64,000 bases of DNA, taken from the NCBI GenBank assembly GCA_015061815.1, contig SUVW01000001.1:62001-126000 (forward strand), read 5' to 3'. The notes under the pieces were generated by a model. It searched no databases. It saw nothing but the letters and a program-made list of their open reading frames with translations, and was not told where the DNA came from. Below are positions 29,977 through 63,812 of this stretch, one piece after another (the stretch's first letter is position 1; each line of letters starts with the position of its first letter). Source of the stretch: Lentisphaerota bacterium. Lineage in GTDB: Bacteria; Verrucomicrobiota; Lentisphaeria; Victivallales; Victivallaceae. Both the position numbers and the translations under genes were made by a program.

Positions 29977-30729
29977 TTATTGAACCGGATTATTGTTGAA
30001 ATTAAGATCGGACCAATTGATGGATTCCGGTTTGGATGTATCGCCATAATTTTTGTCGGCAGGATCGCGCCAGCGGGTACGCTCCATCTGCAGGAATGCT
30101 TCCGGAGTCATCCCGGCTGCATGACCGTCAAAGAACGACATATTGATATTGCCGTTGTGGGCAGCTGCCACAACCGCACTGCCGGAAATTCCTCCGGCAC
30201 TCCAATATGCCACTCCGCCGTCAATAGCGGTATATTGCGAAAAAATATCTGTTTTGGCAGAGTCAGAAATAGCCATCACTGTCGAAGTACTGCCAATGGT
30301 TTTAAGCGGAATTTGCGCAAGATGATAACCGCCGGTATATGTGTAATCATACCTCATACCGAAAGTCCGGTCCCGCCAACGCCCGGAGGCGCGGGTATGT
30401 CCGATCGCCGGACAGCGGTATACCTCTTTATTTTCCGGATCAGCCGTATCCGGATCACTGCCGAAAAACCCCTGTGAATAAAGTTTCGAGGCCCAGAGAG
30501 TCGCTTCCGACAGATACCCGTCAAAATTATCAGCATAGGACAGCTGCGCAAAGACACTCTGCTTGTGCCGGGAAAGGCAATCCGCCGCCAAGCCGCGCTG
30601 ACGGGCAGAATTGAGCGCAGGCAGCAAGATCGCCGCCAATATCGCGATGATGGCTATAACTACAAGAAGTTCGATAAGAGTGAAGCGTACTTCACTCTTC
30701 CTCCGGAGGAAGAGTGAAGCGTACTTCAC
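29977..30729 (-). CDS. Pseudopilin-like protein (FTLIEL leader, H-x9-DG), start disrupted by a repeat
   Basis: The frame holds a type II secretion/type IV pilin N-terminal helix, [20 protein letters not shown], preceded by LFLRRKSEVR, and a globular domain ending with HNGNINMSFFDGHAAG, the H-x9-DG type found in large numbers in this phylum group. Only a GTG at 30729 opens this frame, with GGAGG four bases upstream. A better start, ATG 30763 behind AAAGGGAAAAAA (identical in style to the homologue at 39623), is out of frame because a 34-bp element is duplicated between them; from that ATG the frame stops after 23 codons. The residue before Phe is Arg, not the Gly that prepilin peptidase prefers. 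It may be active, phase-variable or broken. Confidence 0.75.
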   Translation of the reverse strand: MKYASLFLRRKSEVRFTLIELLVVIAIIAILAAILLPALNSARQRGLAADCLSRHKQSVFAQLSYADNFDGYLSEATLWASKLYSQGFFGSDPDTADPENKEVYRCPAIGHTRASGRWRDRTFGMRYDYTYTGGYHLAQIPLKTIGSTSTVMAISDSAKTDIFSQYTAIDGGVAYWSAGGISGSAVVAAAHNGNINMSFFDGHAAGMTPEAFLQMERTRWRDPADKNYGDTSKPESINWSDLNFNNNPVQ

Positions 30730-30749
30730 TCTTCCTCCGGAGGAAGAGT
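30676..30749 (-). repeat. 34-bp tandem duplication made of two palindromes
   Basis: Copies at 30676-30709 and 30710-30743 are identical, and the first bases of a third follow. Each unit combines a hairpin, AAGAGTGAAG-CGTA-CTTCACTCTT on the plus strand (30676-30699), with a perfect 22-bp palindrome whose halves are ACTCTTCCTCC and GGAGGAAGAGT (30694-30715; again 30728-30749). Thirty-four is not a multiple of three, so copy number changes the reading frame of the pseudopilin gene. Confidence 0.95.
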
Positions 30750-30848
30750 CGTTGTCTGTTCATTTTTTTCCCTTTCCATTGTTTTTACTCTTGTTTTGTC
30801 CGACGACTAAAACGATTTATCCGCCACATTCAGGGAGGATACGCATAT

Positions 30849-30877
30849 AATATATATCGCAGTCAATTCAATGCCAA
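30849..30877 (-). promoter_or_regulatory. Promoter of the pseudopilin-glycosidase unit
   Basis: The minus strand shows -35 TTGGCA (30872-30877), 17 bp, and -10 TATATT (30849-30854), about 85 bp before ATG 30763. The roughly 355-bp space between this unit and the metallo-beta-lactamase-fold gene otherwise holds AT-rich sequence and the divergent promoter at 31026; I see no further gene in it. Confidence 0.65.
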
Positions 30878-31025
30878 TGGACAAAACGAATAAAAAATGG
30901 ACAAAATGATTTTCTTTAATATTCATCACCATCGCAGTTTTTACACTTTAATCGCTTATTTTATCGGCAATTAACAACATTTTTAACTTTGGATAAAAAA
31001 TCAATAAAATTAACAATATTATTAT

Positions 31026-31053
31026 TTGACAATTTATTTTAGCGTGGTATATT
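31026..31053 (+). promoter_or_regulatory. Promoter of the periplasmic metallo-beta-lactamase-fold gene
   Basis: -35 TTGACA (31026-31031), 16 bp, -10 TATATT (31048-31053). It is the closest to canonical on the plus strand here. Confidence 0.75.
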
Positions 31054-31118
31054 ATCCGAACAAGGCAATTACCGGGATTTCTGGAAAAAAATAAAAAACA
31101 TTGATAAGGAGAAAAATC

Positions 31119-32072
31119 ATGACCGTACACAAAATTTTACCGACATTACTGTGTATCTTCCCGCTGGCAATTTCAGCTTCGGAAGATTTCAATTCTCTGA
31201 AAAAGCTCTGGGACATCCGGGATGATGCTGAAAAAATCCGTTTGCAGGATCGCATGCAGGTGTTAGTCAATCAAACTCCAAAAAAAGAATTTGACACCTT
31301 TGACAATAATCCGGCGGCAAAAACCACCAATCCCCTGCTCCGTTTCTATGACTGTAATCTCGACCGTCTGAAAAAAGATATTCCCGCAACTCAAGTCAAA
31401 CCGGGCAATGTCGTTATCTGGTATCTTTATAATATGGGATTTGTCATCAAAACTCCGACCGTCTGCTTCGGAGTGGATATCCATCACCGCCGTGCCGTTG
31501 AATTGGCAGATCTGCTGGATTTCATCGTCACCACCCACAACCATGATGATCACTGGTCGATCCCGCTGCTCGACACCATGACCGCCAAAGGTAAACCGGT
31601 AGTGAGCAACTTTCACCCCAATGCATTCTATACCAAAGCTTCCGCATATACCCATAATATTGCCGGAGTGACCATTCACTGCGGTGAAGCCGACCACAAT
31701 GCGAAATTGAAAAAATTCACCATGCCGATGGAGATAATCTGCCCGACCGGTGACCGGAATTTTGTTTTTTTCACCAGCGGTGACTGCGCCAGCGAAAGTT
31801 TTCTGGAACGCAAATCAGAGAAAATACATGTCTATGCCGTCCATCCCCGGTGCGGCATGAAAGCTATCAAAGCGGCAAGAAAACTTGACCCTGATGTTAC
31901 ATTCATCGTCCATCTGCAGGAGATGGGACACCCGATAAATTACGCCCGGTGGAAGATCACCGACGGCCGAGATGAAGCAGCCGTATTCGCAGCTGATTCC
32001 CGCCAGTTCTATCTGCCGGTCTGGGGTGAAAAAATCCTCTGGGACGGAGAAAAAATTTACGGCGGCCAATAA
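31119..32072 (+). CDS. Exported metallo-beta-lactamase-fold hydrolase
   Basis: The 317-residue protein starts at ATG 31119 behind AAGGAG and has a signal peptide (MTVHKILPTLLCIFPLAISA). The hydrolase fold shows the metal motif HNHDDH in FIVTTHNHDDHW, a preceding GFVIKTPTVCFGVDIHH strand pair, the later FTSGDCAS Asp and a C-terminal VHLQEMGHP His. These are features of the UlaG/MBL-like hydrolase branch. The substrate is unknown; export to the periplasm is less common in that branch. It is monocistronic. Confidence 0.85.
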   Translation: MTVHKILPTLLCIFPLAISASEDFNSLKKLWDIRDDAEKIRLQDRMQVLVNQTPKKEFDTFDNNPAAKTTNPLLRFYDCNLDRLKKDIPATQVKPGNVVIWYLYNMGFVIKTPTVCFGVDIHHRRAVELADLLDFIVTTHNHDDHWSIPLLDTMTAKGKPVVSNFHPNAFYTKASAYTHNIAGVTIHCGEADHNAKLKKFTMPMEIICPTGDRNFVFFTSGDCASESFLERKSEKIHVYAVHPRCGMKAIKAARKLDPDVTFIVHLQEMGHPINYARWKITDGRDEAAVFAADSRQFYLPVWGEKILWDGEKIYGGQ

Positions 32073-32160
32073 CCATCCCGGAACAAACCGGGAACTGTGA
32101 CAAACCGCAGACCGTACTCCGCTGCCGCCGGTCATACCGGACGCCGGAATGCAAAAACAC

Positions 32161-32191
32161 ACACTCCGGGCAACGGCGTCGCCCGGAGTGT
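32161..32191 (-). terminator. Terminator after the phosphomannomutase gene
   Basis: An 11-bp stem, ACACTCCGGGC (32161-32171) with GCCCGGAGTGT (32181-32191), has a 9-base loop. On the minus strand it is followed by GTGTTTTTG. It is 14 bp beyond the stop. Confidence 0.8.
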
Positions 32192-32204
32192 ACATAACAT
32201 TATC

Positions 32205-33521
32205 CTACTTGCGGATAACAGCGAGCAATTCGTCGCGTTTTTCCTCCATCAATTCTCTGGTATCAGCTTCCACGATCAACCGCAGCAACGGTTCCGTATT
32301 GGAAGCGCGTACGTTGAACCACCAGTTGTCATACTCTGAAGATATCCCGTCAAGTTCAAACATGTGTCCGTCAGCATACTTCGACTTGATCGCGGCAAGA
32401 ATCGGCGCGACATCAGCGACTTTGGAGTTTATCTCACCGCTGGAAGCATACTTTTTCAAAGGAGCGATCAACTCATGCAGCGGCACATTTTTCGCACAGA
32501 TGAGATTGGCCAGCATGATCATTGCCAATCCCTGTGATTCAGCGGTAAAATTCTGCTTGAAATAGTAGTGTCCGGATAATTCTCCGGCGAATACAGCATC
32601 GTATTCCCGCATCTGATTCTTGATAAACGCATGCCCCACCCGGCACTGGATCGCCCTGCCGCCATTATTTTCGATACACTCTTTAACCGCCCGGCTGCTG
32701 CGCAGATCGTAGAGAATCGTTGCCGGCCCCCGGGAAAGAATATCCTGGGCGATCAAAGCGGTAAAAAGATCCATCGGGATTATTTCGCCCTGATCATCAA
32801 TAAATCCGCAACGGTCGGCATCTCCGTCAAATGCCGCCCCGAAATCAGCTTTGACCTCTTTGACTTTGGCCCGGATGGCATCAAGAGTATCTGTCTTAAG
32901 CGGATTTGCCTCATGGTTGGGGAAAGTACCATCCATCACATCATACATCGGCACGATATCAAACAACTCTTTGATTCCGGCGATCTCATACAATCCCATC
33001 GCATTGGCGTAATCCACCACCACTTTCAATTTCCGGTCCAATTTGGCGAATGACCGGAGAAATTCACCATATTGACCGGTTATATCGTATTTGGATATAC
33101 TGCCTTTGACCGGCACATCCTGCCAGGATCTGTTTTCCACGATCTTCTGGATATCCATGATCCCGGTCGCCCCGCTGATAGGTACAGCATCGGCTTTGCA
33201 GAGTTTGAAACCGTTCCATTCGCCGGGATTGTGGCTGGCGGTGATCATCACACTGCCGTCGGCCTTCAATGTGCCATTGGCAAAATAACTTTGCGGAGTG
33301 GAACTCAACCCCAGATCGATAACATCGGCCCCCTGATCGGTTATTCCGCGACTGATCCCGTCAAAAAGCTGCTGGGAATGAGGCCGCATATCACGCCCGA
33401 TAACCACTTTTTCAGCTCCGGTGAAAGTTACGTATGCTCTGCCGATGGCATAAGCGATATCGGCATTGATATCCGTCGGATATACTCCCCGGATGTCGTA
33501 TGCTTTGAATATTCCTGACAT
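32205..33521 (-). CDS. Phosphomannomutase/phosphoglucomutase
   Basis: The 438-residue alpha-D-phosphohexomutase interconverts hexose 1- and 6-phosphates. Motifs: KAYDIRGVYP near the start, the phosphoserine loop TASHNPGEWNGFK (about 95-107), the metal loop DGDADRCGF, the sugar loop GELSGHYYF and the phosphate loop RASNTEPLLRL. All are canonical for the ManB/AlgC branch. The ribosome site AAAGGA is 8 bp upstream. It is followed by its own terminator, so it is probably monocistronic. It would supply mannose or glucose 1-phosphate for envelope glycans. Confidence 0.95.
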   Translation of the reverse strand: MSGIFKAYDIRGVYPTDINADIAYAIGRAYVTFTGAEKVVIGRDMRPHSQQLFDGISRGITDQGADVIDLGLSSTPQSYFANGTLKADGSVMITASHNPGEWNGFKLCKADAVPISGATGIMDIQKIVENRSWQDVPVKGSISKYDITGQYGEFLRSFAKLDRKLKVVVDYANAMGLYEIAGIKELFDIVPMYDVMDGTFPNHEANPLKTDTLDAIRAKVKEVKADFGAAFDGDADRCGFIDDQGEIIPMDLFTALIAQDILSRGPATILYDLRSSRAVKECIENNGGRAIQCRVGHAFIKNQMREYDAVFAGELSGHYYFKQNFTAESQGLAMIMLANLICAKNVPLHELIAPLKKYASSGEINSKVADVAPILAAIKSKYADGHMFELDGISSEYDNWWFNVRASNTEPLLRLIVEADTRELMEEKRDELLAVIRK

Positions 33522-33543
33522 GATTTTGTCCTTTCGTTAAAAT

Positions 33544-33582
33544 TTTAAAAACGGGGTGCAAAGGAACTCCCCCTGCACCCCG
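33544..33582 (-). terminator. Terminator after transketolase
   Basis: CGGGGTGCA (33552-33560) pairs with TGCACCCCG (33574-33582). On the minus strand the stem is followed by TTTTTAAAATTTT. It is 24 bp beyond the tkt stop. Confidence 0.85.
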
Positions 33583-33606
33583 CTGTACTCATTTACCTGC
33601 TTTGAT

Positions 33607-35667
33607 TCACTCTTTGTGACAATCGCAAGAGCAGGAGCAATCATCATCTCCGCAGGTGCAATCGCAATCATCATCATCACAGCTGAAATAATCTTTGATC
33701 TGATCAACGATACCCTGCGCAGTGAAACCGAACTTCTCGGCCAGCACTTTGTACGGGGCAGAAGCACCGAAGTGATTCAGGCCGATATTGAGACCTTCCA
33801 GACCGGTGAAGCGTTCCCAGCCGAAAGTGCTGGCAGCTTCGATGGAAACGACCGTGCTGTAGCTGGGCAGAACTTCTTCCTGATATTCGAAATCCTGCTG
33901 CAGGAAAAGTTCCTGTGACGGCATGGAAACCACACGCACTTTGACATCTTCCTGACGGAGCAATTCCGCTGCATCCAGCGCGAGATTGACCTCGGAACCG
34001 GTTGCCAGAAGCACCAGATCGAAGTCTTCATCATCACTGACAACAAACGCACCCCGGGCGACATTGACATTTTTTGCAGTTTCCGCATCATACGGACGCA
34101 GATCCTGACGGGTCAGCAGCAGAGCCACCGGACCATCGGCCTGCAGTGCCGCCGCCCATGCACCGGCGACCTCATGCGCTTCAGCCGGACGGATAACGGT
34201 CACGCCCGGAATGCTGCGGAGCATGGCGATCTGCTCGATCGGTTCGTGGGTGGGACCATCTTCACCGACATAGAATGAATCGTGGGTAAAAATGTAGATC
34301 TGATGAAGTTTCTGGATCGCCGCCAGACGGATCGCGGGCTTCATATAATCAGAGAAGACAAAGAAGGTCGAACTGTAGGGGATCGCCGTACCGTTGGCCG
34401 CCATACCGTTGGCCGCCAGTCCCATTGCCAATTCACGCACGCCGAAGTGGATGTTGCGTCCGGCGTAATTGCCGGGAGCAAAATCGGTTTCGTTTTTGAT
34501 ATTGCTCTTGGTGGAAGGAGCCAGGTCGGCGGCACCGCCGAAAAGCGCGGGAACCAGTTCAGCAGCTTTCTGCAAAATCGCACCGCTGCTGGCACGGGAA
34601 GCGGTCGGTTTATCCACCGGAGCAACTTTCAAAAGCTCTTCAAGGATATTTTCCGGCACGCTCTGATTGAGGTACTGATCGATCAAAGCAGCTTTGGCAG
34701 GATCAGCATCGCGGAACGCCTGGAACTTCGCATTCCATTCAGCGGCCTGTGCTTTGCTGGCGGCTACGCAGGAGCTGCAATAAGCTTTGACATCTCCGGC
34801 GACTGTAAATGCCGGTTCAGTATAACCGAGATTGGCACGCAGTGCGGCAAGTTCTTCATCCCCCAGCGGTTCACCGTGAGCAGAAGCCTTGCCCTGTTTA
34901 TTCGGGGCACCGAAACCGATCTGGGTCTTGCCGACGATGATCGTCGGACGGCCGTCAGATTTGACAGCTTCAGCCAGAGCCGCATCGCACTGGGCAATGT
35001 CGTTGGCGTTGTCACAACGGATCACGCGCCAGTTGTAAGCGGCAAAACGGGCGGCAACATCTTCGGTAAAGGCGATCCCGGTGGAGCCTTCGATACTGAT
35101 GGTGTTGTCATCATAGAAAACGATGAGGTCATCCAGTTTCAAATGTCCGGCCAGAGAAGCAGCTTCACTGGTGGCACCTTCCATCATACATCCGTCACCG
35201 GAGATGATAAAAATTTTGTTGCTGTAGAAGTCGGTTTTATCCAGACCGGTGCGGGCGGCGAAATAACGGTTGGCGATCGACATACCGACCGCTGAAGCAA
35301 ATCCGCTGCCCAGAGGACCGGTGGTGATATCCACGCCTTCGGTGTGGCCGAGTTCCGGATGGCCCGGAGTAAGACTTCCCCACTGGCGGAAGTTTTTGAG
35401 CTCTTCCATATCCAGACCGTATTCAAAAAGATGAAGCAGGCTGTAGATCAGCATTGAGCCGTGTCCGGCGGAAAGAATAAAACGGTCACGGCCGATCCAG
35501 CCGGGAGTTGACGGATCATGACGCAGATATTTACTCCACAACACTGCCGCATAATCGGCACAGCCCAAAGGCATGCCGGGGTGACCGGATTTTGCTTTCT
35601 GGATTGCTTCTGCGGAGAGTACCCGGATGGTATCCGCCGTCTTTTTCGCCATTTTGCAGTCGAACAT
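33607..35667 (-). CDS. tkt: Transketolase with Cys/Asp-rich C-terminal tail
   Basis: This TPP enzyme of the pentose phosphate pathway has 686 residues. N-terminal GHPGMPLGCADYAAVLW and HGSMLIYSLLHL, the TPP/metal motif GDGCMMEG...YDDNTISIEG, the central GVRELAMGLAANG and the LLATGSEVNLA C-terminal domain are standard. After the normal end (DQIKDYF) comes an extra tail of about 24 residues, roughly one third Cys and one third Asp, ending CHKE. This tail is not part of the fold and resembles a metal-binding peptide. Start 35667 has AAGGAG 8 bp upstream; the in-frame extension to 35709 is unsupported. Confidence 0.96.
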   Translation of the reverse strand: MFDCKMAKKTADTIRVLSAEAIQKAKSGHPGMPLGCADYAAVLWSKYLRHDPSTPGWIGRDRFILSAGHGSMLIYSLLHLFEYGLDMEELKNFRQWGSLTPGHPELGHTEGVDITTGPLGSGFASAVGMSIANRYFAARTGLDKTDFYSNKIFIISGDGCMMEGATSEAASLAGHLKLDDLIVFYDDNTISIEGSTGIAFTEDVAARFAAYNWRVIRCDNANDIAQCDAALAEAVKSDGRPTIIVGKTQIGFGAPNKQGKASAHGEPLGDEELAALRANLGYTEPAFTVAGDVKAYCSSCVAASKAQAAEWNAKFQAFRDADPAKAALIDQYLNQSVPENILEELLKVAPVDKPTASRASSGAILQKAAELVPALFGGAADLAPSTKSNIKNETDFAPGNYAGRNIHFGVRELAMGLAANGMAANGTAIPYSSTFFVFSDYMKPAIRLAAIQKLHQIYIFTHDSFYVGEDGPTHEPIEQIAMLRSIPGVTVIRPAEAHEVAGAWAAALQADGPVALLLTRQDLRPYDAETAKNVNVARGAFVVSDDEDFDLVLLATGSEVNLALDAAELLRQEDVKVRVVSMPSQELFLQQDFEYQEEVLPSYSTVVSIEAASTFGWERFTGLEGLNIGLNHFGASAPYKVLAEKFGFTAQGIVDQIKDYFSCDDDDCDCTCGDDDCSCSCDCHKE

Positions 35668-35825
35668 CTTTTTACTCCTTTTTTTGTTCGCGTCGCTTCC
35701 GGGAAGCACGGATTTGAAAATTTTTTCCGTTTTTCCCGTTTTACAACTGGTAATTTTACAAAAATTGCGTTATCTTTATTAAAGTAACACTAAAATAGCA
35801 GAAAAACAAGTTTTTTTGTAAAAAT

Positions 35826-36845: not shown

Positions 36846-36861
36846 AAAAACAGATACCGGC

Positions 36862-36898
36862 AGGGCTGTTGCAAAATTGCTGCAACAGCCCTTTTTTT
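36862..36898 (+). terminator. Rho-independent terminator after ruvB
   Basis: A perfect 12-bp stem, AGGGCTGTTGCA (36862-36873) with TGCAACAGCCCT (36881-36892), is followed by TTTTTT. The remaining bases to 37177 are AT-rich, with a possible -10 TATAAT at 37109-37114 without a matching -35; I see no gene there. Confidence 0.93.
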
Positions 36899-37177: not shown

Positions 37178-39598
37178 ATGTTAAAAAAACGCACAATATC
37201 GTCTGCTGTGTTCTTCACATGCCTGATGATGCTGCCGTCATCCGGGCAGAATCTGCTGAAAAACAGTTCTTTTGAAGTGCCCAGAGAACAATACTATCAG
37301 CTGCCGGAAAACTGGAACCTCATGAATAATTACGGAAAAAATACCACCGGCAGCATCTATACTGAAATTGCATTGCACGGCAGCAATTCCGTCCTGCTCC
37401 GCAATGTTGATAAAAAGGACCGCCGCATACAATGGATATATAACAATCTGAAAAGCGGCTTGGATAAAACCGTTCCGGCGGCAATGGAGTTGTCGGTTCA
37501 CGTTTATCCCCTGAAAAAATCTGCCGGAGTGCATATCTTTTTTGAATCCACTTCCGGCAAACAGTGCTTTACCAAATATGACCCGAAAGTTCCCGCCGGG
37601 AAATGGACGCAAATGACCATAAAATTCAACCTCCCGCAGGCAGATTACCGTCAGTCGCATGTGGTCATTCAGTTGGTCGGTTCCGGGGAAGTACTGGTTG
37701 ACGGAGTCTATTTCGGCAAGGCAGGGGGTAATCCATACGCTGATTTGAAAAAAACTCCGGAAGAGATGCTTGCCAAAAATTACTGCCGTTTGAAAAATTT
37801 TCCGGTCAGCAGCCGGTTCATTTCCGGTCAGGTCCCGAAAAAATTGACTCTTGAAACTTTTCTGCCCGGTAAAGATTTGACGGTCACCCTCTCTGAAATC
37901 GAAGGTGCCGCTGTAAAGAAGTGGGAATTCAAAGATCTGCCGGTCAATAAGAAGCATACCGTCGATATCGACATCCCGTATCTGGCCGAAAGTGCTTACG
38001 AATTGAAATACTCCTGCGGCGAATGGACCGAATATGACTGGTTCCGGGTCGGCAGACTGCCCGAAAGAGGTGCTTATTTCAACGAAAACGGCTTTCTGGT
38101 GATCGATGGCAAAACCATCTTTCCCATCGGAGCGATAACTCCGTCACGTGAACCGGATGCATGGCGGGTATACAGTCAAAGCGGTATAAATATGATATCG
38201 CCGGAAACGCCGTTTTTGGAACGGGAATTCGTGGAATACATCTCTGAATATATGGAAAAGTTCGGGCTGTACTGGTTCGTCTGGAATGGCTGGGGTGTAC
38301 TCGATCAATCCGATGATGAGATGCGTTCAAGAATGAGCGCGGAACGTATTCTGATGCAGCAGCACCGGCGTTTTGCCGGATTCTTTGCGGATGAATTGAT
38401 GTGGGGCGGAGCCAAATTGAATATGGCACGGCGGCACTATAAATATATGCTCCGTTATCTGCCGGAGTATCTGGCATGGGTGAATCACGCTCCCCGCATG
38501 ACCGGTGCCCCCGGAGAAAAACGGACCAGTTTCGATCAGGCCAGACGCTTCTCACGGTCTGCAGATTTCATCAGTGTGGATATCTATCCGGTGCCGAATC
38601 ACGGTCACAACAATCTGCCCAACCGGACGATTTCCTGCGTGGGAGATTATGCGGATATGGCCAGAGAACTTATCTGGGATGAAAAACCTTTGTGGATGGT
38701 GCTTCAGGCTTTCAGCTGGGCCGACCACAATGATAAAATGGCACGCACTCCGGAAACTTATCCATCCAAAAAACAGCTCCGTTTTATGGCATGGAACGCC
38801 ATCTCTCACGGAGCCAAAGGCATATACTGGTATGGCAGTGAGTGTAAAAATGTCTACTCTCCATACTACCGGATGCTGGCAGAAGTCAATCTGGAAATAG
38901 AAGCAGTGGCAAAACTCATGATCACCGGCAAAATAAATTATCTCAAAGATCTGCCTTTTGGAGTTTCCGGCATTTCCGGCAAAGGTTATAAAGTTTATGT
39001 CAATGAAAATAAAGACCGCAGTGTGACCGTTGAAAACCGGAACATCGAACCGCACGGTGTACTTATCATTACCGATAAAGCGTTGAATATCCCGGAAGTA
39101 AAACAATTTTCCCCGCAGAAAGTTGACGGAAAACGCACCTATCGTTTCCCCGAAAAAATGCAGGCTGCCGCCTGGATCTGCTGCCCCGGGTATGAAAACT
39201 GCGGAACTCAAACCTTTTACACCCGGCAGGAGTTTGAATTAAACGGAGTCCCCGGAAATATCCGGCTCGATATCGCAGCTGATGATAATGTCAGAGTTTT
39301 TATCAACGGCAAAGAGTTGTTGACGACCCGGGTGTGGACAATACTCTACTCTGCCGACATAACCAAACTGCTTAAACCGGGCAGAAATGTGATCACCACC
39401 GAATTCAGCAATATCGATGGAGCCAACGGTCTGGTTTACGAAATACTTGATGCCGGAAATAAAAAAGTTTTTGCCGCCAGCGGCAAGGATACTCTGATCT
39501 CTCTGGAAAAGAACGGCAAATACTCTCCGGCAAAGGTCGTTGCCCCGCATGGCAAAGGAGTATGGGGCTTGCAGAAAACATTGAAAATCATTAAATAA
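37178..39598 (+). CDS. Large secreted glycoside hydrolase-like protein with binding domains
   Basis: The 806-residue protein starts behind AAAGGAGGT. Signal peptide (about 1-23) is followed by a CBM4/9-like domain (about 24-185, opening NLLKNSSFEVP and closing VLVDGVYFG). Then come an Ig-like linker (about 210-295) and a TIM barrel (about 300-600) with ANG-type FFADELMWGG as a likely Asp/Glu catalytic or substrate site and ISVDIYPVPNHG and GIYWYGSE strand ends. A C-terminal galactose-binding-like domain (about 680-800) has DDNVRVFINGKEL. The architecture fits a secreted GH2/GH42-like glycosidase, but no family is assigned with confidence. It is followed 24 bp later by a pseudopilin gene. Confidence 0.8.
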   Translation: MLKKRTISSAVFFTCLMMLPSSGQNLLKNSSFEVPREQYYQLPENWNLMNNYGKNTTGSIYTEIALHGSNSVLLRNVDKKDRRIQWIYNNLKSGLDKTVPAAMELSVHVYPLKKSAGVHIFFESTSGKQCFTKYDPKVPAGKWTQMTIKFNLPQADYRQSHVVIQLVGSGEVLVDGVYFGKAGGNPYADLKKTPEEMLAKNYCRLKNFPVSSRFISGQVPKKLTLETFLPGKDLTVTLSEIEGAAVKKWEFKDLPVNKKHTVDIDIPYLAESAYELKYSCGEWTEYDWFRVGRLPERGAYFNENGFLVIDGKTIFPIGAITPSREPDAWRVYSQSGINMISPETPFLEREFVEYISEYMEKFGLYWFVWNGWGVLDQSDDEMRSRMSAERILMQQHRRFAGFFADELMWGGAKLNMARRHYKYMLRYLPEYLAWVNHAPRMTGAPGEKRTSFDQARRFSRSADFISVDIYPVPNHGHNNLPNRTISCVGDYADMARELIWDEKPLWMVLQAFSWADHNDKMARTPETYPSKKQLRFMAWNAISHGAKGIYWYGSECKNVYSPYYRMLAEVNLEIEAVAKLMITGKINYLKDLPFGVSGISGKGYKVYVNENKDRSVTVENRNIEPHGVLIITDKALNIPEVKQFSPQKVDGKRTYRFPEKMQAAAWICCPGYENCGTQTFYTRQEFELNGVPGNIRLDIAADDNVRVFINGKELLTTRVWTILYSADITKLLKPGRNVITTEFSNIDGANGLVYEILDAGNKKVFAASGKDTLISLEKNGKYSPAKVVAPHGKGVWGLQKTLKIIK

Positions 39599-39622: not shown

Positions 39623-40426
39623 ATGAAAAAACAAATGCTTCAAAACGAAAAAAACTTCCTTGACGGCAAGGAAGTAAAGCATGGCTTCACGCTCATTGAG
39701 CTGCTCGTCGTCATTGCGATCATCGCCATTCTGGCGGCAATTCTGCTGCCCGCACTCAACTCCGCCAGAGAGCGCGGCCGCAGTGCCTCATGCATCAATA
39801 ACCTGAAACAGTGTATGCTGGCTGTACAAATCTATCTGGATGCCAACAATGATGTTTGCATATTGAAAGATCAGGATGCCACTTACCATACTTTTATATG
39901 GTCAGCTGTTGCAGGCAAAGGCATTCAGTGGCCTAAAACTGTTCGTGACACGGTTGATTACTCCATCGACAGTTGGGAACAGGTGATTTGTCCATCCAGC
40001 GGTGCTGTTGCCCCGCAAGCTGATACAGAGTGGGAGAATTTTACGGGGTTCTATGCAGTTCCCTATCAAGGCTGGCTGGATAGTTCTGTCGATAACAGCA
40101 AAAGATTTATTGATTCACGCAACAAAGAAGCATTGCCGAATCATCGCTCGCCGCACGGAGCAGTTTCTCTTGACAGCCGGAAACTCAAACAGGCCTCTGT
40201 GGCACATGTCTTTACAGATGCCAAACATCAAACCACAGGAGTTCCGAACTATGTCTACTCCTTTGATGAAGGAAAAATTTCTGCCCATCACAATGACCGG
40301 TGCAATATGGCGTTTGCCGACGGGCATGTTGCCACGCTGGATATCGGCTACTTCAAAGATGCCGCTGCCAATGGTTATATCGCCGCTCCGAAATTACGCG
40401 GTTCTGCCGGAAACATGATCCAGTAA
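39623..40426 (+). CDS. Pseudopilin-like protein (FTLIEL leader, H-x9-DG)
   Basis: The 267-residue protein starts at ATG 39623 behind AAAGGGAAAAAA. The leader of about 24 residues ends ...KEVKHG, so Gly precedes [20 protein letters not shown], a proper prepilin peptidase site with Glu at +5. The body has [17 protein letters not shown], a region with CPSS and tryptophans, and the closing [19 protein letters not shown] (H-x9-DG type). It would be assembled in, or anchored to, the inner membrane and project outward. It directly follows a secreted glycosidase-like gene and is followed by a terminator. Confidence 0.88.
39654..39690 (+). repeat. Double-palindrome element inside the pseudopilin leader
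   Basis: Hairpin 1: ACTTCCTTG (39654-39662), loop ACGG, CAAGGAAGT (39667-39675). Hairpin 2: GTAAAGC (39674-39680), loop ATG, GCTTCAC (39684-39690), with one mismatch. The two share two bases and end directly before the FTLIEL codons. The second resembles the GTGAAG/CTTCAC hairpin of the 30.7-kb element. Confidence 0.75.
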
Positions 40427-54403: not shown

Positions 54404-54421
54404 AAATTCAGGAGATTTTTG

Positions 54422-55040: not shown

Positions 55041-55077
55041 TATCCTCTTTTTGATAAAAAAATGTACCCCGCAAAAA

Positions 55078-57091: not shown

Positions 57092-57181
57092 ACTTCATAC
57101 ATGCAGCCTTGTTCCTCCCGGAAGTGTACGATTGTATTCAGAAAATGATGCTGAATATGAAAAAATCCACCGGACAACAAG

Positions 57182-57210
57182 TTGAAAAAACTGATAAGAA
57201 GTGTTAATTT
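57182..57210 (+). promoter_or_regulatory. Possible promoter of the SGNH hydrolase gene
   Basis: -35 TTGAAA (57182-57187), 17 bp, weak -10 TAATTT (57205-57210). Confidence 0.4.
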
Positions 57211-57259
57211 AAAGTGGTAAACGGAAAAATATAACACTGGTGAAAAAGGATTGTCAACG

Positions 57260-58348
57260 ATGAAAAACAATGCTGCGAAATATGACAAAGCGATGGCCGC
57301 CGGAGCAGTGGCCGATCAGAAATTGAAATTCATCACTCCGGAAACCGCGCCGTTGCGGTTGAGTGGATTTGCATTCGGCAAATGTGAGGGAAAATTCCGC
57401 CGTCTGCCGGAAGATGAGAGATTTTCCGATGGAGTAAAGATCCTCTCCTGGCACACCTCCGGCGGCAGAGTTGATTTCCGCACCGATTCCACAAGGCTGC
57501 AGATAAAGGTGAAATTGCATAAATCATCCCACATGGATCACATGCCGGATGTCGGCTCCTGCGGCTTTGATCTTTACGCCGGAGAACCCGGCCGGGCAGT
57601 TATGATCGGCACTTCACGTTCAAAGGCCGGAAGTGATGAGTATGAAAGTACACTGCACAATGACACTCTGCCGGGAAAAATGGAAAATTACACCATAAAT
57701 TTCCCGCTTTACAGCGGCATTGAATCTCTGCTCATCGGCATTGATGAAGATGCTCAACTGCAGGCTCCGGCCCCCTGGGCGGATGAACGGCCGATGGTCT
57801 TTTACGGCACCAGTATCACCCAGGGCGGCTGTGCTTCCCGGCCGGGGATGTCATATCCGGCGATTTTGAGCCGCCGCTTCAATATTCCGGCACTGAATTT
57901 CGGTTTTTCCGGGAACGGCAAAGGCGAACCGGCAGTCGCGGAATATCTGGCCAAAATTACCGATCCGGCGTTTTACCTGCTTGATTACGAACCCAATGCC
58001 AAACCGGACGGAGTAAAAGAAACTTTAAGCTCCTTCATTGATATTCTGCGGGAAAAACATCCGGAAACACCGGTTTTTGTCATGTCTTCGCTGCGTTTCA
58101 ACCGGGAGATCCCGATCACCGGTTCGCCGGATATTCAGGCGGATATTCTGGCCGGATCAGTCAAATTTCAACGCGCTGAAGTGCAGAGAAGAAAAAAGGC
58201 CGGGGACAAAAATATCCATTTCATCAACGGCGGCAAAATCGCCGGCAAAGATTGGCATGAATTCTCTGTTGACGGCTGTCATCAGACCGATCTGGGCTTC
58301 TACATGATCGCCAACAATCTTGAAAAGATCCTGAAAAAAGTTCTGTAA
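57260..58348 (+). CDS. SGNH/GDSL-type esterase
   Basis: The 362-residue protein has an N-terminal beta-sandwich (about 40-165) and a C-terminal SGNH hydrolase. The nucleophile Ser is in FYGTSITQGG, the oxyanion Gly/Asn in GFSGNGKGEP, and the Asp-His pair in SVDGCHQTDLGF. This two-part layout matches esterases that remove acetyl or other acyl groups from glycans. There is no signal peptide. ATG 57260 behind AAAGGA is preferred to TTG 57251. It follows the GH42-like gene by 168 bp. Confidence 0.87.
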   Translation: MKNNAAKYDKAMAAGAVADQKLKFITPETAPLRLSGFAFGKCEGKFRRLPEDERFSDGVKILSWHTSGGRVDFRTDSTRLQIKVKLHKSSHMDHMPDVGSCGFDLYAGEPGRAVMIGTSRSKAGSDEYESTLHNDTLPGKMENYTINFPLYSGIESLLIGIDEDAQLQAPAPWADERPMVFYGTSITQGGCASRPGMSYPAILSRRFNIPALNFGFSGNGKGEPAVAEYLAKITDPAFYLLDYEPNAKPDGVKETLSSFIDILREKHPETPVFVMSSLRFNREIPITGSPDIQADILAGSVKFQRAEVQRRKKAGDKNIHFINGGKIAGKDWHEFSVDGCHQTDLGFYMIANNLEKILKKVL

Positions 58349-58358
58349 GCACTATGCT

Positions 58359-58409
58359 CCGGAAGATCACGGACGGGAAGTCCCGCAATGTGTCTTCCGG
58401 TCACTTTTT
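58359..58409 (+). terminator. Terminator after the SGNH hydrolase gene
   Basis: CCGGAAGA (58359-58366) pairs with TCTTCCGG (58393-58400), with an inner CGGGA/TCCCG hairpin, followed by TCACTTTTTG. It overlaps the 3' end of the convergent regulator gene. Confidence 0.7.
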
Positions 58410-59297
58410 GAAGCTCTGCAGCTTTCTGAATTCTCTCGGGGTCGTACCGGTCACACTCCGGAACACCCGGTTGAATTGCGATATGCTCCCGAAGCCGCAG
58501 ACAAAAGATATTTCCCCGACCGACAACTCCGTTTCGCCAAGCATCTCTTTGGCCTTATCCACCCGGTAACAATTCAGATATGAATTGAAACCCACACCGA
58601 TCTCACGGTGAAATATCCGGCTGAAATAGTTTGCCGAGAAGTAGAACTTTTTTGCCACAGACTCAACCGTCAGAGCTTGAGCGAAATTTTCGTGGATATA
58701 ATCCTGTATCGCCAGTATTTTATCGGGGGAGTTGATCGATTCCATGAACATAAGATTCTGATAGGTGGAAGTTATCAATTTCCCCATCAGCATCAAATAT
58801 CCGACAACTCCGTCGATCTGTTTCATACTCAAGACTATGGTATCGCGGCAGCAGGCGTGCAATTCCCCGGCATCCAATCCGGTCAGATCTGCCAGAAGCT
58901 GAAACTCTTTTTCCCCCGGTCGCGGATTACCCTCGATGTAAAACTGTCCGCTGGTAAGACATCCCAGATAAGTACCGTTTTTATCGAAAAGCGGCACGAC
59001 GATATCAGAAAAACCGGCATGACAGTTGTAAATGTAACTTTCCCCGGAAGCTTTGGCATAAGCGGCGGCCCCGTTGTCGGCCCGACGGCAGGCATCGCAA
59101 CCTTTTTCACTGCGGCGCAAAGCTTCACACAGCGGGTGAAAGTGGCGGCCTTTGGAAAGTTTCAAACTGTCGCCGCCGGCACTGATGAAGTCAATGACGA
59201 TACCCAGCATTTTGTAGATGCAGTCATGATACTCCTGCAGCTGTTTTTCATTGCCGAGTTTGGCAAATACCCGGTTGATTATTTCCCGATGATTCAT
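58401..59297 (-). CDS. AraC-family regulator with PocR sensor domain
   Basis: The 298-residue protein has an N-terminal PocR domain (about 10-165) with the conserved CDACRRADNGAA and YNCHAGFSDIVVP cysteine motifs, then a C-terminal AraC double helix-turn-helix (about 195-295) with LTVESVAKKFYFSANYFSRIF and GFGSISQFNRVFRSVTGTTP. PocR domains bind small molecules, typically hydrocarbon derivatives or sugars. It is divergent from the PTE-family gene and convergent with the SGNH gene, so it probably activates the flanking glycan genes. The ribosome site AAAGGAG is strong. Confidence 0.93.
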   Translation of the reverse strand: MNHREIINRVFAKLGNEKQLQEYHDCIYKMLGIVIDFISAGGDSLKLSKGRHFHPLCEALRRSEKGCDACRRADNGAAAYAKASGESYIYNCHAGFSDIVVPLFDKNGTYLGCLTSGQFYIEGNPRPGEKEFQLLADLTGLDAGELHACCRDTIVLSMKQIDGVVGYLMLMGKLITSTYQNLMFMESINSPDKILAIQDYIHENFAQALTVESVAKKFYFSANYFSRIFHREIGVGFNSYLNCYRVDKAKEMLGETELSVGEISFVCGFGSISQFNRVFRSVTGTTPREFRKLQSFKK

Positions 59298-59409
59298 CTG
59301 AATTCTCCTTTGATATCAAGTCTGTGTAAAAAACGGCTGAAAATGCCGGAAAATCCGCAATATTTCCAGGCATTTTCCGGATTTTTCGCAATTTTTTAAG
59401 AATATGCGT

Positions 59410-59438
59410 AATATACAGCATAAATTGCGGAGATTCAA
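59410..59438 (-). promoter_or_regulatory. Promoter of the PocR-AraC regulator gene
   Basis: The minus strand shows -35 TTGAAT (59433-59438), 17 bp, and -10 TATATT (59410-59415). Confidence 0.65.
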
Positions 59439-59451
59439 ACAAAAAAATGTG

Positions 59452-59457
59452 TATATT
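59452..59457 (+). promoter_or_regulatory. -10 element of the PTE/glycosidase operon
   Basis: TATATT at 59452-59457 has no good -35 at 16-18 bp. It lies 14 bp from the -35 of the divergent regulator promoter. A missing -35 fits dependence on the AraC-type activator. Confidence 0.4.
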
Positions 59458-59542
59458 AGATAATGTAAACAAAAAAATACTGAAAAAAGCCACCGGATAA
59501 AGAAAAAATCGAAAAAAATCCGGCGGAAAAATAAGGAAAACT

Positions 59543-60553
59543 ATGAAAAAGATCATTACCGTTACCGGAGAGATCCCGCTGCCGCTCTGCCGTATGGTTC
59601 TGGCGCATGAACATCTCTTTATAGATCTGACCAATCAGACAGCAGCCGGAGCAAAGCTCCGGCCGCTGACAGCGGCGGATCGTCCGCAGCTGATGAGCGA
59701 TCCCTACTGCATGGAAGACAATCTGCGGCTTGACAGTTTCCATTTTGCGGCGGATGAGTGCGAAGTGCTGTTGAGAAAAGATTGCAATACAGTGGTTGAT
59801 TGTTCTACAGCTGAAATCGGCCGTGACCCGGAAAAACTGCAGCGGCTATCCCGGGAAACGGGGATGAATATCGTGATGGGTTGTGCGTGGTATACGGCCG
59901 ACACCCATCCGGAAGATTTTGCGGCGATGAGTGAATCGGAAGCGGCGGATAAGCTCACCAATGAAGTTCTCACCGGCATCAACGGCATCCGTCCGGGGAT
60001 CATCGGCGAAGTCGGCACATCCCGGGAGATACTGCCGGGGGAAGCAAAAGCTCTTTACGCGGCGGCCAAAGCGCACTGTGCCAGTGATCTGGCGGTGACG
60101 GTACATATTTTCCCCTGGTCGGCGAACGGGTTGGCGGCGGCGGATAAACTGATGGCCAACGGGGTCCGTCCGGAAAAGATCGTGATCTGTCACAGTGATG
60201 TTGAACCGCAGTGGGACTACATCCACTCTCTGCTGCGTCTGGGAGTCTATGTGGAGCTGGATAACTTCGGCAAGGAATTCACTCCGGCCGCAGGCGGTTT
60301 TGCGGCGGGGAACTTTATCAGAGATACGCAGCGGGTGGAATTGGCCGCGAGAATAATCGATGCCGGATACGGCAAACAGCTGCTTTTGACCAATGATATA
60401 TGTTTGAAGTGCATGTTGTCGGAATTCGGCGGCAACGGTTACCGTCATATTTTCGACAATATTGTACCGATGCTGGAAAAATGCGGCATTGACGGCAATT
60501 ATATCAAAACGGAGATTCTCCGGAATAACCCGTTGAATATGTTGGCAATTTGA
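59543..60553 (+). CDS. Phosphotriesterase-family (PTE-like) hydrolase
   Basis: The 336-residue amidohydrolase-fold protein has an N-terminal metal HxH in VLAHEHLFID, a bridging Glu in IIGEVGTS (this branch has Glu in place of carbamylated Lys), His in VTVHIFPW and in IVICHSDV, and Asp in LLTNDICLK. This is the PTER/lactonase-like branch of phosphotriesterases; sugar lactones or acylated sugars are likely substrates. The ribosome site AAGGAAA is 7 bp upstream. It is 32 bp before the secreted carbohydrate-active gene in the same direction, so they form an operon. Confidence 0.9.
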   Translation: MKKIITVTGEIPLPLCRMVLAHEHLFIDLTNQTAAGAKLRPLTAADRPQLMSDPYCMEDNLRLDSFHFAADECEVLLRKDCNTVVDCSTAEIGRDPEKLQRLSRETGMNIVMGCAWYTADTHPEDFAAMSESEAADKLTNEVLTGINGIRPGIIGEVGTSREILPGEAKALYAAAKAHCASDLAVTVHIFPWSANGLAAADKLMANGVRPEKIVICHSDVEPQWDYIHSLLRLGVYVELDNFGKEFTPAAGGFAAGNFIRDTQRVELAARIIDAGYGKQLLLTNDICLKCMLSEFGGNGYRHIFDNIVPMLEKCGIDGNYIKTEILRNNPLNMLAI

Positions 60554-60585
60554 TTTATTGTATAAATTTAAGGAGGTGATACAAA

Positions 60586-63015
60586 ATGATCAAAAAAGTG
60601 TTGATTTTTCTGTTCGTCCTGTCGGTGTCGTGCCTGCAGGCGGCAGAAAAAAACCTGGTGCTGAACGGCACATTTGAGATGAAGGGAAAAAGTTTTCCGC
60701 CCTTCTGGATGTTCCGTTCGCACACGCCGGGCACGGTGGAAGCCTTTGAAACGGGCGGTCCCAACGGGCTTGGTTTTCTGCGGGTACACGCCCGCAAAGG
60801 ATTGATCCAGGTGATCCAGAACAATATTTCCATTGCGAAAAAGGGTCAATACCGCATCAGTGCCTTTGTCCGCACGCGCAATCTGACGGGCAAGCGCAAC
60901 TGTGTGGCGATCCATCCCGGAGCGAAAGATTCCGGTTTGATCTTCCCGGCTGATCAGCCGGAATGGAAGTATATTGAAAAGATCCACTCCGGTTACTCTG
61001 ACGGCAACAGTTTCTACTTTGCCATCGAAGCGGATTCACCGGACGGAGTTCTGGATATCGCGGATCTGAAAATCGTACCGCTGGATGCTCCGGCACTGAA
61101 AAAATCCCGCCGTCAGATCGAAAATGTCGATCAGGCACTGGTCCCGCTGGCTCTGCTGGAATATATTGATCTCAACCATCCGGAAATGGAATTTTTCTGG
61201 GTCGGTGAAATTCCGGGAAAAGCTGCGGAATTGCGCTGGGAATTTCTCTTGGGCAGCAGAAAGCTGACTGAAAAATTCTCCACGAAAAAATTCACTGTCG
61301 ATCTGGGCAAATTATCACCGGCAGCGGGGAAAAACACGTTGACGGCATCGCTGATCGACCGCGACGGGAAAAAGGTGTTTTCGCAAAAGTATCCGGTCCG
61401 TTTCATCCGGAAAACCGGTCAGGCGGAACCGGCCAAACGCCTCAACAACATGGTTCGGGTGGTTTACGAAGGAAAAATTGCGGCCAACGGCAGTAAAAAA
61501 TTCTTCAACCCCCGGAATAATTATGTCCTTTTCCGCTATACCGGAAATGAGAAACCGGAATTGAGCATCAACGGCAAAACGGTGCTGGCGGCGGACTTCC
61601 CGCACGGCAGCGGGGTGCGTTATCTGGATGCCGGAGAATATACGCTGAAAAACAGCGGTGCTGAATGTGACATCTCCATCCGGCTGATCCCGGATATGCA
61701 CATGTTCCCGTTGTGGCACATCCGGGTACCGGGCAATGGAGCATACGATTGGGAATTTGCCAAAAAGTATATGCTCCCGGCGTTGACGACCATCAATATC
61801 GGCGGTATCGGCGAAATCGAGAAAAAAGAGGTGGAGCGTTTCGGTCTGCGGTTTCTTTCCAATGCCAGTGCCATCAAATTCGGCACTCCGGAAGGATTGC
61901 TCAAACGGCTTGAAGAGAATAAAGATCTGCAAGGCTCTCTTTTTGACGGAACCACGATGGATGAGGTCGAATATTGGAGCTGCAAAGTGCCCAGTCCCTA
62001 TGCCAAAGGTCTGCGTTTGTGGAAAAATCCCAAAGATAAGATCTTGAGCACATGGGTGATCGGGCCGCCGACGCACTCTTATGCGGACTTCATTTCGGCG
62101 GTGACCAATGTTTCCGGCGGTCGCGGGCGGCTGCTCTATGAGGTGTACAACCGGGCGCAGTACAATAAGACAGATGCGGAAAACTACATCCGTCAGACGG
62201 CGCAGCATGTGGCACTTTACAAGGATATTTCTCCGGGATTATTCAACAACATTTCGGTGATCCTCGGCAACTTCTCCTATGCCCCGCTGATTTCACTGGA
62301 TAATATTCCGACGGTGGACTTCCGCTACTATCTGGATATGCAGATGAATCTGCTGGCCAATCATCCGGGACTTGACGGACTTGGCGGTGTGGGTTACTGG
62401 GGTTCGATGAATTGTGATGAGGAGATCCTGCGCTGGTGTTTTGCGCTGTTGAAACACTACTGCATAGAGGGCAACACCACGATGCTGTCGGATAAATACG
62501 GTTTCACCTACCATTTGAATATTCTGAAAAATCCGGATTTTGAAGACGGCCTGAATAACTGGCAGGTCACCGGCAAAGTTGAAGCCGGGAAGAAAAAGGA
62601 TTTCGGCAGCAAATTTCAGAAGCGTTACGGTTCAGCCTATACGCAGGGTGACACATTCGCGCTCTTTACCCGGGAAGAAGGTCAACCCTCGGAAGTGCGC
62701 CAGAAGATCACCGGACTTACGCCGGGGAAACTCTATTCAGTATACTATATGGCGGCAGATTACGATGATGTGCAGAAGGAAAAATACAATGCCAAACGTA
62801 TCGGACTGACGCTCACCATTCCCGGTGCGGTGATAATCCGCCGGAGCTATTTTATTGATGACAGGAAAAGTATGAAAGCATGTATGAACAGCTGCAAATA
62901 TATATTCCGGGCCAAAAGCAGTGAAGCGGAACTGGTCTTCAACAACCGCAAAGCTCTTCCCGGTGAAAAGCAGATGTTGAATTATATTACGGTCAGACCG
63001 TATTTTGAACGTTGA
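60586..63015 (+). CDS. Large secreted protein with two CBM-like domains and a barrel
   Basis: The 809-residue protein starts behind AAGGAGGTG with signal peptide [24 protein letters not shown]4/9-like domain (about 22-165, opening [13 protein letters not shown]) is followed by beta linkers. A barrel-like middle (about 385-640) has [15 protein letters not shown] as the best catalytic candidate and [14 protein letters not shown] second CBM4/9-like domain (about 655-805, opening [15 protein letters not shown]) closes with the typical Y-I-T-V strand. It looks like a secreted glycan-active enzyme, though a binding-only role cannot be excluded. The next gene is a pseudopilin. Confidence 0.78.
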
Positions 63016-63038
63016 ACCAATTAAAAAGGAGTGTCAAA

Positions 63039-63812
63039 ATGAAAAAATCAATGCTTTTGAACAATCTTTATTCATCGGAACGCGTTCCGATGAATGCCCG
63101 CCGGGCATTCACGCTGATCGAGCTTCTGGTTGTCATCGCCATTATTGCCATCCTCGCCGCGATCCTGCTGCCGGCCCTCAACTCCGCCCGTGAGCGCGGT
63201 CATGCCGCCAGCTGTATCAATAATTTGAAGCAGATAAGCGGTTTTTTTATACAGTATGCTGATGCCAATGATGACTTTTTAATTCCTTGGAATATGCAAT
63301 ACGCAGGAGGAGCTTCAAAACAACTTTGGCCTGCTACATTCAGAATTTTTATGGGATTAACCTCTTCTGACTATGAACAGATAGACTACCTTTTTTGTCC
63401 CAAACGCAAACGAATCACTGATTATGGTTACAGCAATTTTGCAGAATACGTCAGTTATGGAGTTCTTGAATATGGTCCAACCCGTTGGGCTGCTGACACG
63501 ACCAACACGGTACATCATCCTTTAAAAGTGACACGTATCAAAAACCCGTCATCAACAATCCTTTTGAGCGATTCTTTCTACTATCACTCCAGCGGTCAAT
63601 ATGCCAATACCGGCTATTACCACATCAACAATACTGCTGCCGGGGCAGGAAAAGGAGAATCCAACGGCACCGGCAATATGGCAGGAGTTCACAACAAATC
63701 CGACAATATTGCCTTCTGTGACGGCCATGTGGAGGCGGTTTCCAAGGATGTCCTGCACTGGTGGCTGGATAACGGTACCAAACGCGTAACTGGAGAATTG
63801 GAAAGACCGTAA
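63039..63812 (+). CDS. Pseudopilin-like protein (FTLIEL leader, H-x9-DG)
   Basis: The 257-residue protein starts at ATG 63039 with AAGGAG 8 bp upstream. The leader ends ...MNARRA before [20 protein letters not shown], so Ala stands at -1; Glu +5 is present. The body has [17 protein letters not shown], a region with FCPKRKR and [14 protein letters not shown], and the [17 protein letters not shown] (H-x9-DG) end. It follows the secreted CBM protein by 23 bp. The leader codons contain a perfect 24-bp palindrome and a second hairpin. Confidence 0.88.
63071..63109 (+). repeat. Double-palindrome element inside the pseudopilin leader
   Basis: A perfect 24-bp palindrome with halves TTCATCGGAACG (63071-63082) and CGTTCCGATGAA (63083-63094) shares two bases with a second hairpin, AATGCCC (63093-63099), loop GCC, GGGCATT (63103-63109). 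The latter ends at the first codon of FTLIEL. The arrangement equals that at 39654-39690 and 30676-30749, though the bases differ. Confidence 0.85.

Follow-up and report, generated by a model that had tools for sequence, protein, structure and literature searches.

The window, a 64,000-nucleotide stretch of a Lentisphaerota genome, contains three pseudopilin genes, and the paired palindromes that the sequence-only reading had reported in their leaders, here called A and B, were confirmed base by base in all three. Gene 1 lies on the minus strand, and its mature part, located by the ORF list and the PF07963 match G000:C37:92622-92684:-, spans 29977..30684, starting from the FTL codons at base 30684. 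On the same strand, palindrome B (30676..30699) consists of a 10-bp stem and a 4-base loop, with its 3' arm within the FTL codons, and palindrome A is present as an FTL-proximal copy (30694..30715), a perfect 22-bp palindrome, and a distal copy (30728..30749), seen in the sequence. The earlier pairing of 30728-30749 with 30676-30699 joined two elements that are not adjacent and overlooked a tandem duplication of a 34-bp module (30685..30752, minus strand), the copies of which, 30685-30718 and 30719-30752, are identical at 31/34 bases, the distal one departing at its three leading bases. An ATG with a Shine-Dalgarno-like sequence (30761..30763, minus strand) is located 79 bases upstream of FTL, and is thus out of frame by the excess of one 34-bp module over a multiple of 3.

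The other two genes are on the plus strand, and both have N_methyl and DUF1559 domain matches. In gene 2 (39623..40426, also in the ORF list), palindrome A (39654..39675) forms a 9-bp stem with a loop of 4, and palindrome B (39674..39690) forms 6/7 pairs around an ATG and overlaps the FTL codons, which start at 39686. In gene 3 (63039..63812), palindrome A is a perfect 26-bp palindrome (63070..63095), and palindrome B (63091..63111), with a 10-bp stem, overlaps the FTL codons from 63108 on. The second palindrome had been described as ending at the FTL codons, but its 3' arm actually consists of these codons.

The source genome (G000) has 73 PF07963 matches. Among 210 registers scored over these loci, with at least 10/12 pairs as the criterion, two were predominant relative to FTL, sum −11 in 28/73 loci and sum −45 in 25/73, while every other register was found in at most 4/73 (−79 in 4/73; −113, −49, −43 and +3 in 3/73 each). 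Registers −79 and −113 follow at further steps of 34, as expected from tandem copies of a 34-bp palindromic module. By a stricter count, requiring 8/10 pairs in both palindromes exactly at the main registers, 22/73 loci remained; the other leaders have either shifted registers, as in all three window genes, or no palindrome. Standard-geometry units were present in 29/73 loci of G000, and in 16/38 and 17/42 loci of the sets from G004 and G012, which comprise 38 of 44 and 42 of 86 PF07963 matches, respectively, and served as the ortholog set. Across the 265 distinct FTLIE sites among all loci collected to that point, B was present in 147, A in 133 and both in 120, shares that are biased upward because part of the loci were collected by cassette likeness. 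Codon-shuffled leaders (5 shuffles each) yielded 13.2% for B, 4.4% for A and 1.0% for both, so that the comparison with shuffled codons, on which the sequence-only reading had staked its proposal, revealed a palindrome excess in the other leaders. The exact pattern GTRAAGCN6GCTTYAC occurs at 26 places in G000, as compared to 0 for the reversed control, and all 26 are in pseudopilin leaders, the farthest being 170 bases from its PF07963 match, in the long L057 leader. This pattern was absent from 7/20 sampled genomes of the genus, a point against the explanation preferred below.

The pairing extends to the very center of the palindromes. Selection on B alone gave 100 sites, among which the −24/−21 pair of A was matched in 76 (30 expected) and the adjacent central bases of A in 57 (27 expected). 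Selection on A alone gave 72 sites, and the wobble base of the Phe codon was matched in 69 of these. Among the non-Watson-Crick cells of A pairs −24 to −29, G-T was found 13 times and A-C 33 times, against 84 and 97 expected from composition; for B pairs −7 to −17, the corresponding values were 11 and 38, against 57 and 88 expected. Thus, the covariation lacks the G-U tolerance and the unpaired loop of a structured RNA. Watson-Crick pairing that runs to the center without a G-U preference, and that reaches the Phe wobble base, points to DNA rather than mRNA. The outer A pairs (−31, −33 and −34), on the other hand, matched no better than base composition predicts, which counts against the explanation that we prefer below.

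The alternative raised earlier, that these elements are an mRNA structure, would take the form of a switch in which two mutually exclusive hairpins with a common strand control pseudopilin translation or mRNA stability. The common middle arm, the fixed geometry and the compensatory changes are consistent with such a switch, and the RNA folds of the window leaders are stronger than those of shuffled versions (z −2.3 to −9.2, 4 sequences). However, adjacent central bases cannot pair in a hairpin, and together with the rarity of G-T this disfavors mRNA structure as the cause of the pattern. Furthermore, a Rfam search of 8 loci at the gathering threshold returned no match, and the modules are replaced or absent between orthologs. 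We therefore consider the switch improbable. Even so, the hairpins would be stable in RNA form, and could conceivably affect translation.

Orthologs differ in the presence, type and copy number (one or two) of the modules, with one versus two modules in 3/26 ortholog pairs of G000 and G004. In the comparison of L057 (G000) with its ortholog L178 (G004), positions −500 to −152 of the former align with −333 to 22 of the latter at 78%, and positions 0 to 168 of both align at 89%, leaving a 174-bp insert with a FTLIELL repeat in L057. The L062/L175 comparison, one of the 25 of 28 locus-pair rows used, indicates replacement: the bodies are 96% identical over 140 bases, and 8/21 base pairs have changed on both sides while remaining Watson-Crick; the upstream homology of these two loci reaches only to about −170, a further point against our preferred explanation. 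Evidence for exchange of the FTLIELLV codons was mixed, which also weighs against that explanation: their identity was 0.77 in replaced leaders versus 0.90 in kept ones (P 0.002), but the within-pair test was not significant (P 0.15).

Near-identical modules also precede unrelated genes. Within single genomes, the modules of L238/L239, L176/L192, L062/L063 and L053/L064 have identities of 0.97, 0.94, 0.94 and 0.91, while the corresponding bodies (0.53-0.63) and upstream regions (0.46-0.50) remain close to the all-pair means (modules 0.49-0.55, bodies 0.58-0.60, upstreams 0.46-0.47). Part of this within-genome spread would be accounted for by gene conversion among paralogs. Near-identical cassettes also lie upstream of unrelated gene bodies in several genera. 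The C-type tail of L282 is 99-100% identical over 99 bp to those of 16 other loci, these 17 having been picked as best matches, while the bodies are only 0.48-0.56 identical. This set spans two families, the second being represented by one locus; its MAG is 56% complete and its contig begins 118 bases upstream of FTL, so that this locus may be mis-binned. Tail matches were found in 28/137 genomes of the order.

The cassettes themselves are larger in-frame units (84-264 bp, repeat to repeat) that follow FTLIELLV and contain a FTLIELL of their own. From 39 candidates, 4 were dropped by eye; in the 35 kept, the span was a multiple of 3 in 33, and no stop codon was present in the printed spans. 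The two exceptions, both 142 bp long, each contain a doubled 34-bp module. The right edge is sharp at +22/+23. The bases before FTL were used to select 22 copies that differ in their bodies. TTYAC follows in all of them, and they agree at a level of 0.86 or more up to and including +22, as compared to 0.41-0.55 at synonymous positions beyond it (+23, +26, +29, +32, +35 and +38); motifs ending before FTL and motifs running into FTL selected the same 22. The FTLIELL copy within the cassettes is tail-specific. The K-cassette displays stages of decay, in L153, L154 and L150, and then in L163, L164 and L166.

Given this pattern, which we read from sequence comparison, the palindromes are probably the 3' modules, or what is left, of mobile, site-specific, in-frame leader cassettes in the FTLIELLV codons of pseudopilin genes. 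Small mobile DNA cassettes would insert in frame into these codons, a full cassette combining a variable head and a palindromic tail with a duplicate of the 23 bases that open FTLIELLV. Since the cassette carries its own FTLIELLV start, an intact prepilin cleavage site would still precede the mature protein after insertion, and the old leader and the cassette would together form a new leader, which is presumably removed by cleavage. The 34-bp modules found in simple leaders may represent worn-down cassette tails, and FTLIELL may serve as the crossover region of the transfer. The arms might be kept matched by template switching or by a DNA-level need of the transfer process. The earlier proposal of a mobile hairpin family with the cleaved leader as a safe site is thereby supported, by the insertion differences between orthologs, by the near-identical modules and cassettes before unrelated bodies and by the sharp cassette edge. 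By contrast, the palindromes could be a mutational by-product only, if template switching at a quasi-palindrome near FTL makes and keeps perfect palindromes with no movement at all. Template switching at quasi-palindromes is described in PMC8794818 and has been suggested for coding palindromes in PMC6649704, and it would yield perfect arms, concerted changes and tandem copies; it may well be what keeps the arms matched here. As the sole cause it is unlikely, because it fails on the near-identical modules ahead of genes with unrelated flanks, and on the 84-264-bp cassettes and the common 99-bp tail.

All six two-copy genes in G000, including the 30.7-kb gene of the window, are out of frame with their start: an in-frame ATG is absent from 6/6, versus 3/67 others (Fisher P 5e-7), namely L021, which is at a contig end, L045 and L081. 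In each two-copy gene, the offset of the ATG with a Shine-Dalgarno-like sequence matches the excess of one module over a multiple of 3, and the mature frames are open. Hence, in 6/6 the change in repeat length shifts the frame, as in phase-variable genes. Selected phase variation, in which the 34-bp direct repeat, not being a multiple of 3, would expand and contract to switch each pseudopilin off and on, is compatible with mobile cassettes, and the one versus two copies in the 3 ortholog pairs agree with it. However, reversibility was not seen, plain mutation could suffice, and an in-frame GTG with a purine-rich stretch in L079 might restart translation, so we regard such switching as possible but doubtful. 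Translational bypassing, an idea suggested by the direct repeat around a hairpin, was set aside because most leaders (64/73) have an open frame from an ATG to FTL and need no bypass. The genomes are draft MAGs, and a path turning at two perfect palindromes in a short-read assembly graph yields exactly this tandem period. Such an artefact is nevertheless very unlikely to underlie the duplications: 6/9 two-copy sites have one imperfect hairpin (largest perfect even palindrome 2-4 bp), making the path turn impossible there, and single modules and cassettes cannot be accounted for in this way. It could still apply to L060, L116, L122 and L044, the last with a period of 38, outside the range of the nine-site scan. 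Extending the mobile-cassette explanation, we tentatively suggest a dedicated class of mobile elements attached at the codons of the prepilin cleavage site, whose interchangeable heads and palindromic tails might recombine at the 23-base FTLIELL core, exchange across genera and families of gut Lentisphaeria, rewrite the leaders of a large pseudopilin family and switch its members on and off through the frame-shifting 34-bp repeat.

Integron gene cassettes have a palindromic, sequence-variable 3' end, attC, and form arrays at one site, and the leader cassettes resemble them in these respects. However, no G000 protein exceeded the TIGR02249 integron integrase cut-off (best score 151.8 versus 265), and the leader cassettes are translated within the host protein. 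Rickettsia palindromic elements, as portrayed in PMC10969869, are likewise small and palindromic and are inserted in frame in protein genes. The likeness drawn earlier to these elements stood as regards in-frame insertion into coding sequence with an open host frame, as seen in the cassettes, but not as regards the choice of target: those elements are described in unrelated genes (PMC10969869), whereas the leader cassettes keep to a single codon position in a single gene family, carry the target codons and have shorter modules of variable sequence. REP/REPIN elements, which go with RAYT transposases, share paired palindromes, high copy number and the form of miniature mobile DNA (PMC3116915), but REPINs are extragenic, while the leader cassettes lie within coding sequence and G000 yielded no Y1 gene. 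The IS200/IS605 ends, such as those of IS608 with its target TTAC, also have a hairpin adjoining a TTAC-like sequence (PMC5934647), but G000 has no TnpA match, and no transposon body was seen. Nematomorpha mitochondria keep perfect palindromes within translated genes, although these extend up to 284 bp, and no mobility or single codon site is described in the relevant part of PMC6649704. The palindromic coding repeats of PMC2996958 are likewise thought to be shuffled and transferred, but they are 25-residue repeat domains of varied surface proteins rather than fixed-site leader cassettes. Among the open-access literature matches listed, judged by title and the start of the abstract, there was no description of such leader cassettes.

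In the 94%-complete G000, searches for Y1/RAYT, reverse transcriptase, tyrosine or integron recombinases and serine recombinases found no fitting mobilizing enzyme. None of 5 Y1 transposase candidates scored, no reverse transcriptase was detected, and the one serine recombinase match covers part of the profile. Of three PF00589 tyrosine recombinases, one passes the XerD cut-off and another, resembling XerC, narrowly misses the cut-off for that family; both of these Xer-like proteins narrowly exceed the threshold of NF040815, a profile that mentions integron integrase as well in its description. Y1 was found in 10/30 genus genomes. In the 18 genus genomes common to all searches, 12 with modules and 6 without, Y1 was present in 6/12 versus 3/6, reverse transcriptase in 4/12 versus 1/6 and serine recombinase in 6/12 versus 3/6. 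That these searches yielded no fitting mobilizer counts against the mobile-cassette explanation. An IMG/VR search with a cassette peptide for viral carriers gave 10 pattern matches, none confirmed.

Taken together, the palindromic cassettes appear to move between genes and genera. If so, mobile DNA would have settled in a leader that a protease removes, carrying its target codons, a simple means of persisting within a coding sequence while sparing its product. Each genome would then offer dozens of parallel natural experiments on palindrome evolution, and poorly known gut bacteria would possess a possible mass switch for surface proteins. One tail type, which is GA-rich, differs from the others in that part of its palindrome also occurs outside pseudopilin leaders; it is the only tail palindrome to do so, and a general dispersed repeat may have been the source of this tail.

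The leader palindromes belong to a real and unusual system, in which in-frame palindromic cassettes are tied to one codon site in one gene family. In the window, pseudopilin genes 1 (L079, minus strand, 30.7 kb), 2 (39.7 kb) and 3 (63.1 kb) all match the prepilin N-terminal motif profile, PF07963, and genes 2 and 3 additionally match DUF1559. Read base by base, each leader carries a palindrome A and then a palindrome B with a common junction, and the FTL codons form the last arm of B. The sequence-only reading was right about two junction-sharing palindromes in the three leaders, but not about the layout of gene 1, where the 34-bp module that they form is tandemly duplicated. Directly 5' of genes 2 and 3 lies a gene for an 806- or 809-residue protein (window 37178-39598 and 60586-63015), with no Pfam match or one weak match.

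In the genome holding the window (G000; 2.50 Mb, 44 contigs, 94% complete), the leaders of all 73 PF07963 matches were retrieved, and pairing was counted at 210 registers, with the first FTL base as reference point. The level of 10 or more pairs out of 12 was reached in 28/73 loci at sum -11 and in 25/73 at sum -45, followed by -79 (4/73) and -113, -49, -43 and +3 (3/73 each); the module occupies the standard register in 29/73 leaders. Both hairpins were present in 120 of 265 distinct sites, a non-random pool as some loci were retrieved by cassette likeness, as compared to 1.0% of codon-shuffled leaders. The outcome that the sequence-only reading had named as refuting, no palindrome excess over shuffled codons in most other leaders, was not obtained. 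The period in these 120 sites was 34 in 88, 37 in 10, 31 in 7, 35 in 6, 38 in 5, and 32, 33 or 36 in 4 together.

An RNA hairpin requires a loop, and selection at the RNA level tolerates G-U pairs. At 100 sites picked on B alone, A was paired in 85-93 for -25 to -29 and in 76 at -24/-21 (expected, about 30), and its two adjacent central bases were paired in 57 (expected, about 27), while the outer pairs -31, -33 and -34 were at the level predicted by composition. Where A alone was the selection criterion, the wobble base of the Phe codon was matched in 69/72 sites. Among the pairing exceptions, G-T was rarer than A-C, also after allowing for composition. Thus, neither RNA mark was found in the palindromes of these A- and B-picked sites. 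Template switching, which keeps inverted-repeat arms alike, is a published route for such symmetry to persist (PMC8794818).

Orthologs were compared as reciprocal best pairs of G000 with genomes G004 (26) and G012 (2). The leaders are almost identical in L020/L181 and L034/L199, but differ by one versus two modules in L047/L192, L015/L172 and L060/L200, and by a module versus none in L033/L193. In L064/L183 and L062/L175, the modules differ in sequence, yet are paired again. The bodies of L062 and L175 show 96% identity across 140 bases, and 8/21 module pairs changed on both sides and are still Watson-Crick, with 5/21 changed in other ways. Given these paired changes under such similar bodies, this module looks replaced rather than drifted. 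Near-identical modules also precede unrelated genes within one genome.

Six genes of G000 carry two modules (L015, L026, L042, L044, L060 and L079). An in-frame ATG is missing in 6/6, versus 3/67 of the others, and in all six the ATG that has a Shine-Dalgarno-like sequence lies out of frame by the remainder that one module leaves, while the mature frames are open. With the start so displaced, a gene with a duplicated module is expected to be off unless translation restarts at a GTG, a possibility in L079. For 6/9 two-copy sites examined, an artefact of assembly paths turning at palindromes was ruled out.

Larger cassettes, with a variable head, a palindromic tail and their own FTLIELL copy, gave 39 raw cases, four of which were excluded by eye as different in kind. 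In the remaining 35, a truncated FTLIELLV is followed by a further FTLIELLV 84-264 bp on; the span is a multiple of three in 33, and the other two hold a doubled 34-bp module. By eye, the heads (KRSHLCC, NTSISSLHF, SKTCQIC, AQQNCFSK and VTSQLCRDFF) combine in mixed pairs with the tails (the 34-bp module, rows of small hairpins with CTTCAY after each one, or a GA-rich long palindrome), and the downstream FTLIELL copy tracks the tail type, the upstream copy being variable. Cassette insertion is displayed by L057 versus L178. Since K-type cassettes show decay stages that end with a short leader holding nothing but a 34-bp module, the simple leaders are probably cassette remnants. In the cassette copy at L290, FTLIEL meets a stop after 14 codons, and the gene is apparently broken.

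L282 shares one tail with 16 other loci at 99-100% identity across 99 bp, the bodies being at 0.48-0.56. The 16 loci were chosen from the best tail matches and include L280 (genome G311, another family). In 22 copies with distinct bodies, picked on the bases before FTL, agreement is at least 0.86 through +22, whereas from +23 on the synonymous sites agree at 0.41-0.55. All 23 bases are common to 14/22 copies, and some copies change to other codons within them. The 23 common bases, together with switch points that vary, suggest that recombination takes place inside FTLIELL, where either host machinery or an unrecognised recombinase would carry it out; searches covering Y1 transposases, reverse transcriptases, integron integrases and serine recombinases identified no mobilising enzyme. 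Tail matches occur in at least 28/137 genomes of the order, with at least 46 in G022 (mostly ~70% identity); 50 candidates were scored per genome, and the weakest matches may partly reflect the FTLIEL part of the query.

Like Rickettsia palindromic elements, the cassettes live inside genes. However, the spread over many genes that marks those elements was tested here and not found, and we therefore do not class the cassettes with them. Of 20 sampled genomes of the genus, 13 have 2-26 copies of the B-type pattern and 7 have none; it is also present in 20/268 other genomes of the phylum sample, where its 1-3 copies are close to what the reversed control gives. Pattern-bearing genomes that carry a name are MAGs of Lentisphaerae or Lentisphaeria; where titles give the source, it is the gut of yak, sheep or roe deer. 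Stretches of 100% identity, 3081 bp (L003/L106, G000/G012) and 763 bp (L065/L142, G000/SIG93), join genomes rated different species, through recent transfer or cross-binning. At L251 and L028 (G000:C37, ~205.2-205.8 kb), a pseudopilin has a 159-codon leader, open back to an ATG and built of several GA-rich palindromic repeat copies. The palindrome CTTTTCCCGTGAAAAG also lies outside pseudopilin leaders, at L248 (G000:C12), L249 (G000:C37) and L250 (G000:C31), and forms a tandem series in L250.
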